This document shows positions 12,399-64,000 of a DNA stretch of 64,000 nt, piece after piece. The notes beneath the pieces were generated by a model. That model did not search any database. It was not told the DNA's origin and saw only the letters and a program-made list of their open reading frames with translations. The stretch lies in NCBI GenBank assembly GCA_023251075.1, contig JAHEZM010000003.1:1-64000 (forward strand), written 5' to 3'. How positions within the stretch are numbered: position 1 is the first letter of the stretch; each line of letters starts with the position of its first letter. The stretch comes from Flavobacteriales bacterium. GTDB taxonomy: Bacteria; Bacteroidota; Bacteroidia; Flavobacteriales_C; GCA-002722245. The position numbers were made by a program, and so were the translations under genes.

Positions 12399-13889
12399 TT
12401 ATTCCACTATAAATTTCTTTACTACATTTTCATATTGAATAAAATAAATTCCTTGTGGTAAATTCAAATCGATGTGTGTTGTATTTGCAGGATAATACTT
12501 TTCTATTTTTCCTTGTATATCGAATATTTTTAAAAATGAATTTTCAGTTCCTTTAATCTTTAAATAATTTTTTGCAGGATTGGGATAGAGATCAAATGTT
12601 GTGTTTTTTTCGTTTAAAGTACTGAGTGTCCAATCGGCAAATCCACCAAAAGCAACTACAACTTTAGTAGGTGATGAGCTATGTAAAGTGGAAGATTGTT
12701 CGAACACGTCATCGTAAGCAAAGGCGTATGTTTTTTGATTTTCACTAATACCTTGTTCATGAAAAAATTTAGCGTAGTAGTTACAAGGTGCGGTGAGATA
12801 ATATTGCGATGGGTCGGAAAAACTTTGTTGTCCGATATTAGGTGTGGTAGTATTCACCACATGACGAGAAATAGCTGCACACATTTGCGCTTGCAGCATT
12901 AAATCTACCGGTGCATCACCATTGATTTGGTTCAGCACACCTTTTCCCTCAAAGAGTTCTTGAGTGGTGGGTCTTCTGCTGATGATAGCTGTTCTGCCGT
13001 TGAAACCACCGCTCTGACAAACCATTACCAATTGTTCATTTTGTACTCTACCTTTCCACACTCCGGCATCACCCGCACTAAAAATTAAATCTTCATTGGC
13101 ATATTTTGCCCAAATAGCATCAATATAAGGTTTCATATAGTTAACGTATGGCCCAATATTGGGCATAGTACCAATAGTGCCATCGGCAAAATTTTCGGTT
13201 TTGGTTGGAAAAAGAATTACGCCTGTGTTAGCATTGTAACAACCCTGAAATTCAAGAGGAGCATTGGCTTGAAAATCGGCAATAATTTCATCATGTGTTT
13301 TGAGTTCACCCGTTTTTTGATACGAATTATTGCTTCCAAATAATTCTAATCCCATAGGATAATTGTAAGAATCTACACGGGTGGTATTTCCCCAAAATCC
13401 ATATTGATTGTAAGTGAGTTCAATGATTTCATATTTAATTCCTTTGTTGGGATCGGTAGGATCGGTATGGTTGGGAGAGGCGTATCCTGAAGGAGCTCCT
13501 GTAGCACCAAAGAAATACAAATACAATTGTTGCTGAATAGAGATAAACATTCGGCAACCTTGTATTCCTGTCAGGTTCACCGTTTTATTGGGAATATCGC
13601 TCAGTTTCGTGAAGCAGTTGGCGTACATGCCGTTGTTGCCCGGGCCTTTGTTTCCGCCATAAACAGGACCTGCAACGGTATTGTAGCTTGCGCTCATGGG
13701 CATTTGATTTCCGGTGGTCATATCCACCCAAACGTGCGCTCCCGGAGGTCCGCTTAAATCTTCTCCCACAATGGCAACATACAATTCATTGTCGTTGTAA
13801 GGGGAGTTATTTTTGATTTCGAAAGGAATGTTTTGAGAGAACAAAACATTACAAAGCATGACGCTAAGAGCAAGCAAATTTTTCCCCAT
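12399..13889 (-). CDS. Secreted GH64 beta-1,3-glucanase with T9SS sorting domain
   Basis: 496 residues. A signal peptide ends near residue 18 (NVLFSQ). The catalytic region, about 20-400, matches the GH64/thaumatin-like family: early IPFEIKNNSPYNDNELYVAIVG, HVWVDMTTG, GCRMFISIQQQLYLYF, and YEIIELTY. GH64 enzymes release oligosaccharides such as laminaripentaose from beta-1,3-glucan. The C-terminal 75 residues, starting FDLYPNPAKNYLKIKG and ending with GIYFIQYENVVKKFIVE, are a T9SS type A sorting domain. With the GH16 and GH18 enzymes it suggests degradation of fungal or algal wall glycans. Upstream (13890-14048) there is a 7-bp GACGAAA/TTTCGTC hairpin at 14012-14028. Confidence 0.88.
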   Translation of the reverse strand: MGKNLLALSVMLCNVLFSQNIPFEIKNNSPYNDNELYVAIVGEDLSGPPGAHVWVDMTTGNQMPMSASYNTVAGPVYGGNKGPGNNGMYANCFTKLSDIPNKTVNLTGIQGCRMFISIQQQLYLYFFGATGAPSGYASPNHTDPTDPNKGIKYEIIELTYNQYGFWGNTTRVDSYNYPMGLELFGSNNSYQKTGELKTHDEIIADFQANAPLEFQGCYNANTGVILFPTKTENFADGTIGTMPNIGPYVNYMKPYIDAIWAKYANEDLIFSAGDAGVWKGRVQNEQLVMVCQSGGFNGRTAIISRRPTTQELFEGKGVLNQINGDAPVDLMLQAQMCAAISRHVVNTTTPNIGQQSFSDPSQYYLTAPCNYYAKFFHEQGISENQKTYAFAYDDVFEQSSTLHSSSPTKVVVAFGGFADWTLSTLNEKNTTFDLYPNPAKNYLKIKGTENSFLKIFDIQGKIEKYYPANTTHIDLNLPQGIYFIQYENVVKKFIVE

Positions 13890-14048
13890 AAATAGTAGTT
13901 AATAGTAGTGGGGGCAATGTATCATGAAAATTCATTCATCACTAATAAAAATGGAATAAATACGGGGATTTACTGCCGGACAAATTTGGGACGAAGGGGG
14001 ATTGCCGTAGGGACGAAATGCTTTCGTCTTAAATTATTTTCTGTTGAA

Positions 14049-57252: not shown

Positions 57253-59610
57253 ATGAAAAGAATAATATTTATTGGTTTTTTATTTTCAACCTTCAGTTTG
57301 CTTCAAGCGCAACCTGTTGCTATTGGTCAATGGAGAGATCATTTGCCTTATTATGGAGGTAAAACGCTATTGGCAGCGGGCGATAAAATTTACTGTTCTT
57401 CTGATCCGGGCATGTTTAGTTTCGATTTAGACGACAATAGTATCACTCGTTTGTGGAAAGGAAGTGGTTTATCGGATGTGGGTGTAAATAGTATAGGTTA
57501 TTCAAGTACTTACAATACGGTAGTATTAGGCTATTCAAACGGAAATATCGACTTGATTGTGGGGGATAAAATCATCAATTTGGCCGATATCAAGATGAGT
57601 AATATTTTGGGAGATCGATCGATTAATCATGTGCGTGTAAACGGACAATGGGCATATCTCTCTTGTGGTTTTGCAATTGTGGTGCTTGATTTGGCAAAAA
57701 GAGAAATTAAAGATACTTATAGAATTGGAAACAACAGTACCAATGTTTTTGTTAATGAATTAGAGATTTATCACGATACTATTTTTGCAGCCACAAAAGA
57801 TGGAATTTATTTGGCCGATCTTAATAATCCGAATCTTAGCGATTTTCAAAACTGGACTGTTTTAACGTCATTGCCTTCTGGTTCATACAATTCAATTGTT
57901 GCAGTGAATGATAAATTGTATACCAATTTCGATAAGGCCAATGCCACCAATCAAGACACTATTTTTGAATTTAGTAATGGTGTATGGTCGAAAAGCAACT
58001 TAGGTGTTTATTACACCAATAATGATGTTTTAGATATTAATGCAGGAACAAAAGGCTTGCTCATCGCCTCAACGGTAAAGGCATGGGTTTTGAATGCCGA
58101 TTTAAGTTTAGATAAAGAGATTGTTCAGTTTTATGTAGATGGTTTTCCGGGTTGGGCTACCGATGCACATCCTGTAGAAATTATAGAAAATAATGGTGAG
58201 TATTTTGTTTGTGATTGGCGATATGGCTTGCATAGAGTGAATGGAGTTTCATTGCCTCAGGCCATTATTCCTAACGGACCTTATGCTAAAGATGTGTGGG
58301 AACTTAAAGCGCGCAATGGTCATTTATGGGTGGCTACAGGAGGTTATGATAACGCAATCAATCCGCGTTTTTCAATAGTGGGGACTTATATGTTTGATGG
58401 TAGTTTCTGGCATACTTACAATTCCGTTACCACTCCGGGTTTAGATACCATTTATGATCATATCTCGGTAACACCTGATGCTACAGGGAAATTAGCTTAT
58501 TATGGTTCTTTGAATACCGGAGGTTTTTCTTTAGCAGAAAACGGAATTCAAAATGTTTACAAATTGACCAATACTAGTTTTAATGCTTATTCTGGTAAAA
58601 ATGTAATGCTTTCCGATTTTGAATTTGATGCCAATGGAAAATTGTGGGCTTTGAATAGCGGAAGAGATGGATTTCCAATTTCATCTACCTTACATGTGTT
58701 GAAGGGAAATACCTGGCAGCCCTTTACCATACCCGCTATTACTAGTAATGCTTCTATTATGATGAAGATGATGATAGATTCACAAGGCAATAAATGGATC
58801 GTTAAAACAAAAACAAATTTTGGTGTGGTAGTAGCTCGAGAAAAAGATAATAATTTAAATAGCTCAACACTTTTTAATGTGCGTCACCTTTCGGATGGGG
58901 TGGGTAGCGGAAGTTTACCTTCGTTGAGGGTAAATGAAATGGCGGAAGATCATGCCGGTAAAATTTGGTTCGCTACGGATCAAGGAGTTGCTGTTCTTTA
59001 CAGCACCGATAATTTATATACAGCATCGGCTGTTGATGCTAGTTTGGTAACCATTACAGATCCTGCAACCAAAGTGGCCTATCATCTTTTAGCGACGGAA
59101 AGAGTTACTTGTGTGGCGGTAGATGGTGGTGATAGAAAATGGTTCGGTACAGATGGTTCCGGAGTATATTTGGTTTCGGCAGAAGGAACCACTCAGCTTT
59201 TGCATTTTACCGAAGAAAATAGTCCGCTTATTTCTAATAAAATTATTGATATAGCAATAGATGATGTTACCGGAGAAGTGTTTATTGGAACAGAAAAGGG
59301 AATAGTTTCTTATCGAGGAACATCAACAGAAGGGACCGATGCCAATGGATTTGTTTATGCTTTCCCCAATCCGGTTAAACCTGATTACGATGGTATTATT
59401 GGCATTAGAAATTTAGTGAATAATGCTTACGTAAAAATTACCGACATAACGGGTAATATGGTTTATGAAACCAAAGCGGAAGGCGGACAAGCAACATGGG
59501 ATGGCAAAAGGAAAGATGGAAGCAGACCTCAAACCGGAGTTTATTTGGTTTTTATTTCTAATGGAGATGGAACAGAAACAGAAGTAACTAAAATTTTATT
59601 TATCAATTAA
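57253..59610 (+). CDS. porZ: Type IX secretion system surface protein PorZ
   Basis: 785 residues. A signal peptide ends near residue 19 (LLQAQ), and the mature N-terminus reads IGQWRDHLPYYGGKTLLAAGDKIYC, typical for PorZ. Two seven-bladed propeller-like regions follow (repeats such as GKIWFATDQGVAVLY and GEVFIGTEKGIVSYRG), then a C-terminal sorting domain starting VYAFPNPVKPDYDGIIG. PorZ is part of the surface attachment complex that places A-LPS on T9SS cargo, studied in Porphyromonas gingivalis. recO follows after 10 bp, so they are one operon. Its presence supports a working T9SS for the GH16, GH64 and GH18 enzymes here. Confidence 0.93.
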   Translation: MKRIIFIGFLFSTFSLLQAQPVAIGQWRDHLPYYGGKTLLAAGDKIYCSSDPGMFSFDLDDNSITRLWKGSGLSDVGVNSIGYSSTYNTVVLGYSNGNIDLIVGDKIINLADIKMSNILGDRSINHVRVNGQWAYLSCGFAIVVLDLAKREIKDTYRIGNNSTNVFVNELEIYHDTIFAATKDGIYLADLNNPNLSDFQNWTVLTSLPSGSYNSIVAVNDKLYTNFDKANATNQDTIFEFSNGVWSKSNLGVYYTNNDVLDINAGTKGLLIASTVKAWVLNADLSLDKEIVQFYVDGFPGWATDAHPVEIIENNGEYFVCDWRYGLHRVNGVSLPQAIIPNGPYAKDVWELKARNGHLWVATGGYDNAINPRFSIVGTYMFDGSFWHTYNSVTTPGLDTIYDHISVTPDATGKLAYYGSLNTGGFSLAENGIQNVYKLTNTSFNAYSGKNVMLSDFEFDANGKLWALNSGRDGFPISSTLHVLKGNTWQPFTIPAITSNASIMMKMMIDSQGNKWIVKTKTNFGVVVAREKDNNLNSSTLFNVRHLSDGVGSGSLPSLRVNEMAEDHAGKIWFATDQGVAVLYSTDNLYTASAVDASLVTITDPATKVAYHLLATERVTCVAVDGGDRKWFGTDGSGVYLVSAEGTTQLLHFTEENSPLISNKIIDIAIDDVTGEVFIGTEKGIVSYRGTSTEGTDANGFVYAFPNPVKPDYDGIIGIRNLVNNAYVKITDITGNMVYETKAEGGQATWDGKRKDGSRPQTGVYLVFISNGDGTETEVTKILFIN

Positions 59611-60338: not shown

Positions 60339-60399
60339 AATTAACGTGAGTTCTGAATAAAAATATTTCTGTTATTTTTATTCAGAACTCACGTTAATT
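60339..60399. terminator. Long hairpin between recO and the chitinase gene
   Basis: Perfect 27-bp stem at 60339-60365 and 60373-60399 with a 7-nt loop (AATTAACGTGAGTTCTGAAT...). The stop codon of the leftward chitinase gene (60394-60396) lies inside the right arm. T-rich on both sides, so a bidirectional terminator is likely. Confidence 0.85.
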
Positions 60400-62349
60400 T
60401 TTAATCAGTTTGTAAAAATCAATGTTGTTATTGGTTACGGTATAAATTCCTTCTGGGAGGGAATTAATATCTATCCATTCGTTATTACTGATTGTATTTT
60501 GTTGCACTAGTTTTCCTGATAAATCATAAATGAAAATAGTACCTGCTGAATTTATTTTAAACGAGTTGTGAGCAGGATTAGGGTAAATGAAGTTGATTGT
60601 TTTTTTCATTTCAGATACGGCAATATTACTGCTAGGATCGGCGAAAGTAAAATCCAAATAATTCAGATTAAAATCACCTGTTTCAAAAACAATTCTAATC
60701 ACTTGCTCTCCTTTTGTTAAAGGTACATCATTCACTTTTACATTGAGCCAGCTTTGCCATCCGCCGCTGGCAGGAATAGAGAAGGTGGCTGTTGTTTGAT
60801 CATTGATTTCGATATGGAAAGCTTTGTTTCCCGCAGTACACGCTACTCTTGCCCGTATGTCGTAAATAGTATCTTTAGCAACATTAACGGTATACTCTAA
60901 CCATTCTCCTGCCTGAATCCATCCTATACTATAACCATTACCATTGTCGGCACAACTTTCTATATCTACATTTCCTGTTCTGTAAGCATTACCGTTATTG
61001 CCTTCCGATAAATCGTAGTAACCCAGATTGCTACCCACATCAAAATTTTCTGCTTGCACTTTTCCCGGAATATTTTGTGCATTTCCACCAAATGCACTTT
61101 GTACAAGAGCTGGATTTACGGTGATAGTTATGGTATCACTATATGCAGAAGAGTACATATTATCGAGCGCTAAGGCATAAATTTTATAGGTTCCTGGTCC
61201 GGCAGTTTTCCAACTGTAGGTAAAATGAGTGCCTGTATCTTGTGCTATTTTATTATTGTTGGCATAAAAAGCAATAAGAGAGATAGTACCATCGGAATCA
61301 TTTGCATTTGCTTCCATGTAGATAGAATCTCCTTCTGTAAATGTTTGATTATAGATTGGGTGGATTAAAGTTGTTTTTGGTTTTTTATTGTTTTGCGAAT
61401 TTTTTATTACTTCATCCATTGCCTTTAACAATGATTTATTATTGCTCGTTGGGAAATCATATTGTAAAGCCCACCACATTACTCCTCCTGCTAAATCCTG
61501 AGCCAGGGCTGTTTTTTTTTTAATGGTGCTAATACCGTTGTAGTAAATATTTCCGTTGGATGGTGTGGTAATGTGATCTTCATTTTCTGATCCCGGAAAG
61601 AGATTAAAAATTTGCATGATGGTCATACTACTGCTGCCATTGGTTTCCCATCGGTAGCCATAACTAGGTAATCCCAGTATCAATTTTTCTTTGGAAAGTG
61701 CTCTTGTTTCTCCCCAATATTGTAAGTCGCTTACGGCTGAGGAATATGAGGAATGCTGACCGGGTCCGCTCCAGGTACCATATTGGTCGTACGACATAAT
61801 ATTTACCCAATCGAATTTATTCAGTGCATCATTAGAAATAGAATTTCCATTCCATGTAGCTACTGCAGCGCTTAATGTTTTTCCACTTCCAGCGAGTGAA
61901 TCAGCCAGTTCAATAATAAAAGCATTGTAGTTAACATCAATTGCTGATCCTTCTAAATCAATATCGATTCCATCCAGTGAATACTGAAAAAGAAATTCTT
62001 TGATTTTGTGAATGAAATTTGCTCGGTTTGCTAGCTGTTTTAAGGTAGTCCATGAACTCGGAGCAGAAGCACCACCTACAGAAATAATTGCTTTTGCATT
62101 TCCATTGTGAATAATGTTTACAACAGAATTTAAATTATCGGTAGGACTCATCGCTCCCAAATTATCGGGATTCGCGAACGATATACAAACATGTGTTACA
62201 ACATTGTAATCAACAGCGTTAGCATCTTGTACAAAATTCCCCCAATTGTACAAATAACCCACCACTTTAAATTCTGCTTTACAGAATTGAAAGCTAAATA
62301 AGAAAAGAAAAAAGAAAAGAAAGCCCCCATTTGATTTACTTGTAGTCAT
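60394..62349 (-). CDS. Secreted GH18 chitinase with Ig, CBM6 and T9SS sorting domains
   Basis: 651 residues. A signal peptide ends near residue 25 (FQFCKA). GH18 domain about 27-312: FKVVGYLYNW start, SVGG at 90-93, catalytic DGIDIDLE at 126-133 with Glu133 as the proton donor, MSYDQY at 185-190 and the terminal Trp of GGVMWWALQYD. Residues 325-411 are an Ig-like domain (VxxTxPxxG-type linker with IYMEANANDSDGTIS), 427-570 a CBM6 (IPGKVQAENFD, VDIESCADNGNGYSIGW, GEWLEYTVNV), and about 580-651 a T9SS type A sorting domain (YPNPAHNSFKIN). Degrades chitin outside the cell. The AraC-type regulator lies just upstream in the same direction. Confidence 0.95.
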   Translation of the reverse strand: MTTSKSNGGFLFFFLFLFSFQFCKAEFKVVGYLYNWGNFVQDANAVDYNVVTHVCISFANPDNLGAMSPTDNLNSVVNIIHNGNAKAIISVGGASAPSSWTTLKQLANRANFIHKIKEFLFQYSLDGIDIDLEGSAIDVNYNAFIIELADSLAGSGKTLSAAVATWNGNSISNDALNKFDWVNIMSYDQYGTWSGPGQHSSYSSAVSDLQYWGETRALSKEKLILGLPSYGYRWETNGSSSMTIMQIFNLFPGSENEDHITTPSNGNIYYNGISTIKKKTALAQDLAGGVMWWALQYDFPTSNNKSLLKAMDEVIKNSQNNKKPKTTLIHPIYNQTFTEGDSIYMEANANDSDGTISLIAFYANNNKIAQDTGTHFTYSWKTAGPGTYKIYALALDNMYSSAYSDTITITVNPALVQSAFGGNAQNIPGKVQAENFDVGSNLGYYDLSEGNNGNAYRTGNVDIESCADNGNGYSIGWIQAGEWLEYTVNVAKDTIYDIRARVACTAGNKAFHIEINDQTTATFSIPASGGWQSWLNVKVNDVPLTKGEQVIRIVFETGDFNLNYLDFTFADPSSNIAVSEMKKTINFIYPNPAHNSFKINSAGTIFIYDLSGKLVQQNTISNNEWIDINSLPEGIYTVTNNNIDFYKLIKN

Positions 62350-62417
62350 AAATAAATGGTTTTAATAGACAGGCAAATTAACCTTGCATTTACAATTTTC
62401 AAAATGTTTTAGAGGAA

Positions 62418-62434
62418 GTGCGGTGATTGTCCGG
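62418..62434 (-). promoter_or_regulatory. Candidate operator upstream of the chitinase gene
   Basis: On the minus strand CCGGACAATCACCGCAC, i.e. half-site CCGGACA and a weaker CCGCAC starting 11 bp later, about 70-85 bp before the chitinase start at 62349. A third look-alike, CCGGATA, starts 18 bp earlier and falls in the end of the AraC gene. The same arrangement is seen at 63839-63856. Confidence 0.5.
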
Positions 62435-62444
62435 TGAAATAAAT

Positions 62445-63548
62445 TTATCCGGCCTTTTCTTCTTTTTGTTTTCTGTAATCGCCAGGGGCAATACCTGTTT
62501 CCGATTTAAAAACCCTGTTGAAATGAGTCACATTATTATAACCAATAGAATAGGCAATTTCAGAAATATTAGCTTCGCTTTCATTCAACAATCTCTTGGC
62601 TTCGGTCATTCTGATGTTGTTGATATATTGCTTGAAAGACTGATTGTATTTGGTTTTTATAATAGCAGAAATTTTATTTTCGTTGTATCCGGTTTCTTTA
62701 TTAATTAAACTTAATGATAGTTCCGGATTAGAATAATTGGCTGCGATGTAATCGAACACCTTTTTCTCTAAAGCATCATTGCCATTGTTAATTTCCGGTG
62801 TTGGCTGATAAGTAACAAAAACCGTTTTTTTCTTTTTAGTATAGCCAATTAAGAAAGCAATAATACTTAATATTAAGCCTATTATTAGTGTATATAGGTA
62901 ATATAAATTTTCAGCAGTAAATGCAAAAGAGCTAAGAGTAATTTTATCTTTTATTCCAGTAGGTAAGAATGCACAGTTTTCAATTTCTACAGATTGTGTA
63001 TTGCTAAAAGCACAATTCATTTTGCTGCCAATGGAATCAATCTGGTTGTCTCTATACCACCAATCAGGAGTACTGAATTCTTTTAAAGGAATTTCATATT
63101 CTTCTTCCTCAGGAGAATATTTTAATTCATAAACATTACTCATGTAAGAGTTCGAATTTTCAATATTTGAAAATTTCTCACAATAGGTTTTGATATTTAT
63201 TCGAATAATTTTTGTGTGTTCGGCCTTTATTTTAAGCGATACTGATGAATAATCATTGATATCAAAGTACTGTTTCGGATTCTTTTTAGATAAGGCGATT
63301 CCAACGTAAGGGTATTCAAATTTCCCCCCTAAGGTGTAAGTTAATTCAAGAGATTGCTCGGGGTTGGTTTTTAATTCTGCCTCAGAATTTCCTTTGTCTG
63401 CATGATCTTCATATCCCTTGGCTACAAAGTCCTCTGTAAATGGAAACATCGAAAATTTTTGAACTCTAAAGAAAAAAAGAATAGAGGAAACCGCTAAGGT
63501 CCCAATAAGTATGTTAATAGCTATCCTTTTAAAATTATAGGTCTCCAT
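62445..63548 (-). CDS. Membrane-anchored AraC-family regulator with extracytoplasmic sensor
   Basis: 367 residues. Helix 8-27 and helix 214-235 are both membrane segments; between them, residues 28-213 form a beta-rich domain outside the cytoplasm, with DYSSVSLKIKAEH, IRINIKTY and EEEYEIPLKEF, a pattern resembling galactose-binding-like jelly-rolls. The cytoplasmic C-terminus, about 262-362, is an AraC HTH pair: SLSLINKETGYNENKISAII and ANISEIAYSIGYNNVTHFNR, with GIAPGDYRKQ. It would sense a ligand outside and act directly on DNA. Immediately upstream of the chitinase gene (95 bp), in the same direction. Chitin breakdown products are a plausible ligand, by context only. Confidence 0.88.
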   Translation of the reverse strand: METYNFKRIAINILIGTLAVSSILFFFRVQKFSMFPFTEDFVAKGYEDHADKGNSEAELKTNPEQSLELTYTLGGKFEYPYVGIALSKKNPKQYFDINDYSSVSLKIKAEHTKIIRINIKTYCEKFSNIENSNSYMSNVYELKYSPEEEEYEIPLKEFSTPDWWYRDNQIDSIGSKMNCAFSNTQSVEIENCAFLPTGIKDKITLSSFAFTAENLYYLYTLIIGLILSIIAFLIGYTKKKKTVFVTYQPTPEINNGNDALEKKVFDYIAANYSNPELSLSLINKETGYNENKISAIIKTKYNQSFKQYINNIRMTEAKRLLNESEANISEIAYSIGYNNVTHFNRVFKSETGIAPGDYRKQKEEKAG

Positions 63549-63607
63549 GTTCGCACCTTAAAGATAGCATTTTCACATTAATTTCCAGTTTTAATTTTGC
63601 ACAAAAA

Positions 63608-63641
63608 AACAAGGTAGATATTGAGCAATATCTACCTTGTT
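63608..63641 (-). terminator. Long hairpin upstream of the AraC gene
   Basis: Perfect 15-bp stem (AACAAGGTAGATATT, 63608-63622, with complement at 63627-63641) and GAGC loop, followed on the minus strand by T7. It has the form of an intrinsic terminator for leftward transcription, though no leftward gene is seen to its right. Confidence 0.65.
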
Positions 63642-63816
63642 ACCTAATATATATAAAACTGTCTGGAGAATGCATATGAAAAAAGAACGTCTTTTTTAAA
63701 AAGTGACGGCCTCGGGGGGGAGACCGTCCACTTCTTTAGGGGGATTCAATCTACTTTTCTTGTTACAAATTTAAGTTGTAAGGGAGTGATTCGACGAATA
63801 TTTATTGTGACTTGCG
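63642..63816. other. Gene-free stretch with two further hairpins
   Basis: Part of a 406-bp gene-free region between the divergent AraC gene and the entering gene. It holds AAAAAAGA/TCTTTTTT (63679-63697) and AAGTGACGGCCTC with an imperfect complement (63701-63733, G-rich loop). No coding frame or known RNA was recognised, but three hairpins in about 130 bp are unusual. Confidence 0.5.
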
Positions 63817-63856
63817 CCGGACAGGCAAAAAAATAAAGCCGGACAATGACCGGACA
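63817..63856 (+). promoter_or_regulatory. Candidate operator array, CCGGACA direct repeats
   Basis: CCGGACA occurs at 63817-63823, 63839-63845 and 63850-63856, in direct orientation with 22- and 11-bp steps (multiples of one DNA turn). The pair 63839-63856 matches the site upstream of the chitinase gene in 15 of 18 positions and lies in the same orientation relative to the gene starting at 63955. Probable binding site for the AraC-type regulator, inferred only. Confidence 0.55.
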
Positions 63857-63954
63857 AAAACACGCAATAAATTGAAAATCAAATTAATAATGAAAAGACA
63901 ATTTTTGTGATGTATTAATTTTCTTAGTATTTTGTGGTAGATAATTGTTCGATT

Positions 63955-64000
63955 ATGAAAAAGATATTTGTCCTCCTATTTATCCTTCCTCATTTACTAT
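63955..64000 (+). CDS. Start of an exported protein gene, cut by the window end
   Basis: ATG at 63955 followed by MKKIFVLLFILPHLL, the first 15 residues of a signal peptide; the frame runs to the window edge without a stop. The product cannot be identified. The CCGGACA array 99 bp upstream, in the same direction, suggests it is regulated with the chitinase gene, and such a neighbour might be another chitin-related surface protein, but that is a guess. Confidence 0.6.
   Translation, partial: MKKIFVLLFILPHLL

Follow-up and report, generated by a model that had tools for sequence, protein, structure and literature searches.

CCGGACA repeats as the predicted operator of a membrane propeller/Y_Y_Y/LuxR regulator of chitin- and glucan-degrading genes in a Flavobacteriales genus

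The window analysed here is a stretch of 64,000 nucleotides (nt) from a Flavobacteriales bacterium (contig JAHEZM010000003.1, positions 1–64,000), towards the end of which direct repeats of the 7-mer CCGGACA precede a GH18 chitinase gene and a second gene starting at 63955. These boxes are likely to form the operator of the membrane regulator encoded by the second gene, a protein of 939 amino acids (aa) which joins a propeller and Y_Y_Y sensor to a LuxR-type helix-turn-helix (HTH) domain, and which would activate chitin and glucan genes together with a divergent candidate small RNA of 64 nt. The repeats are probably binding sites which turn on chitin- and glucan-degrading genes scattered over the genome, a prediction made from sequence comparisons that involve the following features:

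60394–62349, minus strand: GH18 chitinase with CBM6 and a type IX secretion tail, 651 aa (Pfam, open reading frame); predicted target gene
62374–62404, minus strand: chitinase promoter of the Bacteroidetes type, with TTTTG (62400–62404), 19 bp and TAATTTG (62374–62380), from a promoter scan
62417–62434, minus strand: predicted two-box operator of the chitinase, CCGGACA-N4-CCGCACT (CCGGACAATCACCGCACT), 12 bp upstream of the −33 element
62445–63548, minus strand: membrane AraC-type regulator with a transmembrane (TM) helix, a periplasmic CBM11-like domain, a second TM helix and an AraC HTH (Pfam, model, Foldseek)
63806–63823, plus strand: operator box pair 1 (TGTGACT, CCGGACA); the −7 element of the candidate small RNA is exactly 32 bp away
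63839–63856, plus strand: operator box pair 2 (CCGGACA-N4-CCGGACA, CCGGACAATGACCGGACA), 116 bp before the regulator start codon
63955–64000, plus strand, continuing to contig position 66774 (L061:8955-11774): start of the 939-aa regulator, the proposed reader of the operator

Operator conservation and the predicted regulon

The initial annotation of this DNA was correct in that the minus-strand site (62434–62417) and the plus-strand site (63839–63856) are equal at 15 of 18 positions, that another CCGGACA (63817) lies 22 bp before the plus-strand pair, and that the AraC-type gene stands between the two CCGGACA sites. It had overlooked a diverged fourth box, TGTGACT at 63806; the four boxes in the window stand at 63806, 63817, 63839 and 63850, in steps of 11, 22 and 11 bp. 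We compared the window genome with nine others, four from its own genus and five from a sister genus (these Flavobacteriales relatives are known from metagenome-assembled genomes, some of which are fragmented, and orthologous promoters are not independent of each other). The four-box operator is kept in all five genus genomes, with boxes at −149/−147, −138/−136, −116/−114 and −105/−103 from the regulator start, and in every copy the 33-bp gap between box pairs scores best of all gaps tested. The divergent AraC/propeller gene pair is also kept in 5/5 genomes, the two halves being found in G004 on two contigs which both contain the intergenic region. Such an operator would act in both directions, on the gene of the regulator itself and on the candidate small RNA, which is directed toward AraC.

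Random recurrence of a k-mer near unrelated genes has a negligible chance of explaining these pairs and is already refuted by the conservation data. Single copies of CCGGACA are common, with about 127 expected in the genome, and several of the matches with two or three mismatches fall inside coding sequence. However, CCGGACA is found eight times in the window (shuffles of dinucleotide blocks gave 2.7 and none reached eight), and exact CCGGACA-N4-CCGGACA pairs occur twice in the 3.28-Mb genome where 0.002 are expected under a simple composition model, the other pair preceding a second GH18 chitinase by 103 bp. Allowing up to two mismatches, there are 62 matches to the pair in the five genus genomes and nine to the reversed pattern, and 12 of the 13 matches with at most one mismatch are intergenic (p ~1e-10 at an assumed 12% of intergenic DNA). 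Conservation at orthologous genes and a fixed distance to promoters also argue against chance.

This distance is clearest for sites in the reversed orientation, where a TAnnTTT[GA] element lies 31–33 bp away in 8/14 promoters from four unrelated protein-gene families, against an element density of 0.0035/bp; counted by independent gene families and including the small RNA, the rule holds in five of nine (p ~2e-8 under the same density). Forward sites lie about 36–37 bp from the predicted promoters of GH18 genes and about 70 bp from that of the regulator gene, where the promoter matches are weaker. This placement of sites relative to promoters is activator-like, and the bound regulator would activate promoters carrying the Bacteroidetes TAnnTTTG element.

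The predicted targets would be chitinases, hexosaminidases, an exo-glucosaminidase and glucanases. GH18 genes of the 421/422-aa type carry a forward site at −103 to −109 in the window genome, G002 and G003, and the GH20 hexosaminidase gene beside them, or at the same place, has a reversed site in all five genomes. Sites also lie before a GH16-CBM6 gene transcribed away from a SpoIIE-type gene (G002, G003 and G004), before a second GH20 gene in G001 and another GH18 gene in G002, and upstream of a GH2 gene in G002 whose best PDB match is an exo-beta-D-glucosaminidase (E 1e-70). Weaker sites in the window genome, each with three mismatches and individually uncertain, precede a GH64 gene, a polysaccharide deacetylase gene and a gene whose 486-aa product, a piece of a giant protein, has no match in Pfam; the first of these lies within the window:

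12399–13889, minus strand: GH64 beta-1,3-glucanase, probable regulon member (Pfam)
13976–13993, plus strand: weaker operator (CCGGACAAATTTGGGACG), 3 mismatches, intergenic, in reverse orientation before the GH64 gene

No GH64 orthologues were found in the order, and the operator is mostly missing at orthologues of the 486-aa protein. Conservation and the further targets in the five genomes support both the shared operator pointing to the next gene and the small chitin regulon put forward in the initial annotation, the latter being larger than first claimed.

We also note a one-mismatch operator (L062:9992-10009; G000:C42:149991-150008) 117 bp before the gene for a 147-aa secreted protein of unknown family, which has a perfect TTTG-N21-TATCTTTG promoter. 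A PorZ-like type IX secretion propeller protein encoded in the window upstream of recO (57253–59610) is unrelated to the operator.

The probable reader of the boxes

The 939-aa protein consists of Reg_prop propellers, a Y_Y_Y domain, one TM helix, a coiled coil (long helix) and the C-terminal LuxR-type HTH. The Reg_prop and Y_Y_Y matches exceed the Pfam cut-off, and an AlphaFold model of the sensor matches the periplasmic domain of BT4663 in Foldseek (E ~1e-32; best PDB match 4a2l). Pfam gave no match to histidine kinase, receiver or AraC domains, and because of this the protein reads as a one-component regulator, whose periplasmic double propeller/Y_Y_Y domain would sense a chitin- or glucan-derived oligosaccharide and signal through the single TM helix and coiled coil to the HTH, which would contact one face of the DNA at tandem 7-mers with an 11-bp step. 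Related proteins were found in 63/295 Bacteroidia genomes searched, although some of these are other propeller proteins matching in the sensor part only, and our literature searches found no published operator for propeller/Y_Y_Y/LuxR regulators and nothing specific on the LuxR-propeller family.

Evidence linking the boxes to this protein comes from its orthologues, paralogues and distant relatives. Orthologues from the sister genus (38% identity) retain the motif, as AAGGACA-N4-CCGGACA in G007 and in a CAGACA/CTGGACA form in G005 and G008, and AraC is not a neighbour of these genes. Where the recognition helix of a paralogue reads SINALDKRKSRLRE and not SISGVEKRKYRLKD, the upstream repeat is CCTGACA-N4-CCTGACA, as at one gene from the window genome (G000:C45, L177, with one further base changed) and another from G001 (C4, L176), and these probably represent a sister regulon. 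Amongst 38 distant family members from other families of the class Bacteroidia, 8-mer repeats with an 11-bp step are found in 12 (2.4 expected from shuffles and 4.4 from control promoters), and repeats with a 33-bp step in ten (1.2 and 4.4 expected, respectively). The full four-box layout, with the letters TACATCA, lies about 140 bp before the gene in L209, L214, L218 and L252, and at −224 in L207. TACATCA pairs with zero to two mismatches accompany 9/12 members with an EIS/EIG-RY helix compared with 1/26 of those with other helices. Operator letters thus track the LuxR recognition helix, and the 11-bp-step architecture appears to be shared across the Bacteroidia. TACATCA direct repeats with this step were seen upstream of the distant propeller-LuxR genes L207, L209, L214, L218, L221, L223 and L252.

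The initial annotation had instead taken the membrane AraC-type regulator (62445–63548) to bind CCGGACA and so control the chitinase and the divergent gene, a proposal which we found unsupported and now consider unlikely, as the motif follows the propeller/Y_Y_Y/LuxR gene at 63955. The AraC candidate does hold an AraC-type DNA-binding domain (HTH_18, E 2e-21), its gene lies between both sites and adjoins the four-box operator in 5/5 genomes, and its sensor resembles a glucan-binding module: in the model (mean predicted local distance difference test score, pLDDT, of 84) two TM helices flank a jelly-roll domain for which CBM11, a beta-1,3-1,4-glucan binder, is the best match (E 1e-7). Nonetheless, an AraC monomer, whose two HTHs differ, would be a poor fit to near-identical half-sites 11 bp apart; the motif persists without an adjacent AraC gene in the sister genus and at the stand-alone small-RNA copies described below, and distant LuxR-propeller genes without AraC display the same architecture. 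The motif is also missing at the loci of AraC paralogues beside other carbohydrate genes. AraC-type hybrid regulators of Bacteroides, the hybrid two-component systems (HTCS), do use direct-repeat motifs, but the repeats in their operators are on average 21 bp apart rather than 11 (PMC3878776).

That a third, unlinked regulator such as a response regulator of the OmpR/PhoB type reads the boxes is more improbable still. The operator is most constantly attached to the LuxR-propeller gene, and its letters covary with the LuxR-propeller helix over paralogues and distant members. On the other side, OmpR/PhoB-type response regulators typically bind near-identical direct repeats with an 11-bp step, and a response regulator is encoded nearby (L061:13964-14704), though it is of the LytTR and not the OmpR type.

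Several observations weigh against the LuxR-propeller protein as activator of this regulon. Inverted repeats are the better-known binding sites of LuxR/NarL-type domains, and the GerE match of the window protein (E 6.5e-5, 22.9 bits) is just under the cut-off of 23.5, though a distant family member exceeds it with 25.8 bits and the model of the window protein has a helical C-terminal domain. The motif is absent before the sister-genus orthologue in G006, and the Fisher p of 1.2e-5 for the link between TACATCA pairs and helix type is optimistic, the promoters tested being those that had supplied the consensus. The sites of the GH64, deacetylase and 486-aa protein genes are at a mismatch level where most genome matches are coding, and the motif is absent at most of the 16 GH18-domain matches checked in this genome (a general chitinase signal was rejected for the same reason). 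AraC paralogues are numerous, so AraC may have a joint role. Taking the sister-genus motif, helix-linked letters, distant 11-bp layouts, motif-free AraC paralogues and the published spacings of AraC-type and SusR sites together, we regard the LuxR-propeller protein as the better candidate, and the AraC-type protein is probably not the reader of CCGGACA. To judge from its model, the latter may be a glucan sensor with other target sites. Paralogues sharing its TM/CBM-like design adjoin other secreted carbohydrate-type genes (L069, L073-L076), which suggests several related membrane AraC regulators, each acting locally and on different sites.

A candidate small RNA facing AraC

Between the regulator operator and AraC we identified three further features:

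63609–63640, minus strand: second hairpin resembling a terminator (P2, with T-run), within the AraC leader; its arms vary among species with pairing kept
63698–63761, minus strand: predicted 64-nt small RNA, with an invariant 5' AAGAAAAGTAGATTGAATCCCC, a covarying terminator hairpin and a T-run
63766–63773, minus strand: small-RNA −7 promoter element (TAAATTTG), 4 nt before the first conserved base

In the alignment of the AraC–propeller intergenic region, the block AAGAAAAGTARATTGAATCCC runs without any other change across the five genomes and is followed by a hairpin, in which five base pairs have both partners changed in at least one sequence, and then by the T-run. A covariance model found two further strong copies in G002 and G003 (L273, G002:C23:228-288; L274, G003:C143:9938-9997), which stand alone between a gldG-like gene and dnaN and each have an operator complete with all four boxes (0/11/33/44), its offset of 44 bp unchanged. 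The layout is the same in 7/7 copies: 4 nt separate a TAnnTTT[GA] box from the block, and upstream of this promoter box there are exactly 32 bp between it and a box pair. With its own promoter, terminator and conserved structure, the element appears to be a previously undescribed small RNA switched on by the same operator. Rfam gave only weak, implausible matches at the hairpins, and no small-RNA copies were found in the sister genus. A small peptide encoded in the RNA was rejected by eye, as the TTG frame that the window genome keeps open is not maintained in relatives, and a further match to the RNA model (G000:C19) is an ordinary hairpin between convergent genes.

The conserved hairpin might instead be an attenuator in the AraC leader, with transcription from 63761 normally ending at the hairpin and reading through into AraC under some condition, which would compete with the small-RNA part of our proposal only and which we think rather unlikely. 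In 5/5 genomes AraC follows on the same strand, and the second hairpin lies just before it, ahead of its start codon, so read-through control (attenuation) of AraC is conceivable. However, at the stand-alone copies AraC is missing while promoter, operator, 5' block and terminator are all retained, and the conserved 5' block is outside the hairpin.

When the 5' 22 nt of the small RNA were compared with 213 start regions of the window genome, GH64 ranked first (−18.7 kcal/mol), the 486-aa protein second and the window chitinase sixth, and all three have operator-like sites; the 213 regions are a limited set of examined loci rather than genome-wide, and because of this target pairing is a hypothesis only. 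The G001 homologue of the 486-aa protein also shows pairing at its start codon, with 18/21 complementary bases (−20.4 kcal/mol). As a lead, the 5' end could pair with the start regions of some regulon mRNAs. We note separately that a family of giant secreted proteins (L015, L293-L307; ~1000–1700 aa) has an N-terminal part without Pfam match, and that the start regions of several of their genes contain ATGGG and are complementary to the small RNA.

Known systems and the meaning of the operator

SusR (BT3705) and GibS were set against the window features by published description. Like SusR and the SusR-like regulators of Bacteroides, the proposed regulator would be a membrane one-component sugar regulator with a periplasmic sensor and cytoplasmic HTH, and both have direct-repeat operators, carbohydrate regulons, and motif similarity which tracks regulator similarity (PMC3878776). 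In contrast, the predicted sites of SusR have a distance of 67 or 77 bp (PMC3878776) where the steps here are 11 and 33, and the SusR DNA-binding domain has been described as without significant similarity to known transcription factors, unlike the LuxR/GerE match found here. A periplasmic double propeller plus Y_Y_Y fold links the regulator to the BT4663-type HTCS, as would control of glycan genes, but the window sensor is joined directly to a LuxR-type HTH with no kinase, receiver or AraC domain matched. CusS/CusR of the Flavobacterium johnsoniae chitin utilization locus is also a regulator, one on which the chitin degradation genes of a Bacteroidota member depend, but comprises two proteins and one contiguous locus (PMC5127042), whereas we predict a one-component regulator whose target genes are scattered. 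GibS of Bacteroides thetaiotaomicron is likewise a Bacteroidota small RNA, linked to N-acetylglucosamine, with a conserved unstructured 5' seed and pairing around the start codons of metabolic mRNAs, but it is 145 nt long (PMC7366714), while the candidate described here is of 64 nt, with a 3' terminator hairpin, and lies beside its presumed regulator.

More tentatively, the Bacteroidota may possess a class of one-component propeller-LuxR regulators with a shared operator code (7-mer pairs with an 11-bp step, the pairs 33 bp apart), its letters set by the LuxR recognition helix; in this genus the regulator might in addition drive a divergent small RNA pairing with the start codons of a part of the same enzyme mRNAs, so forming an incoherent feed-forward loop in chitin and glucan degradation. 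A readable code of this kind would allow propeller/Y_Y_Y/LuxR regulons to be predicted from sequence. The predicted chitin regulon is scattered over the genome here rather than confined to a single locus, and the exactly conserved promoter spacing ties the candidate small RNA to it, making RNA control of polysaccharide degradation in the Flavobacteriales testable.

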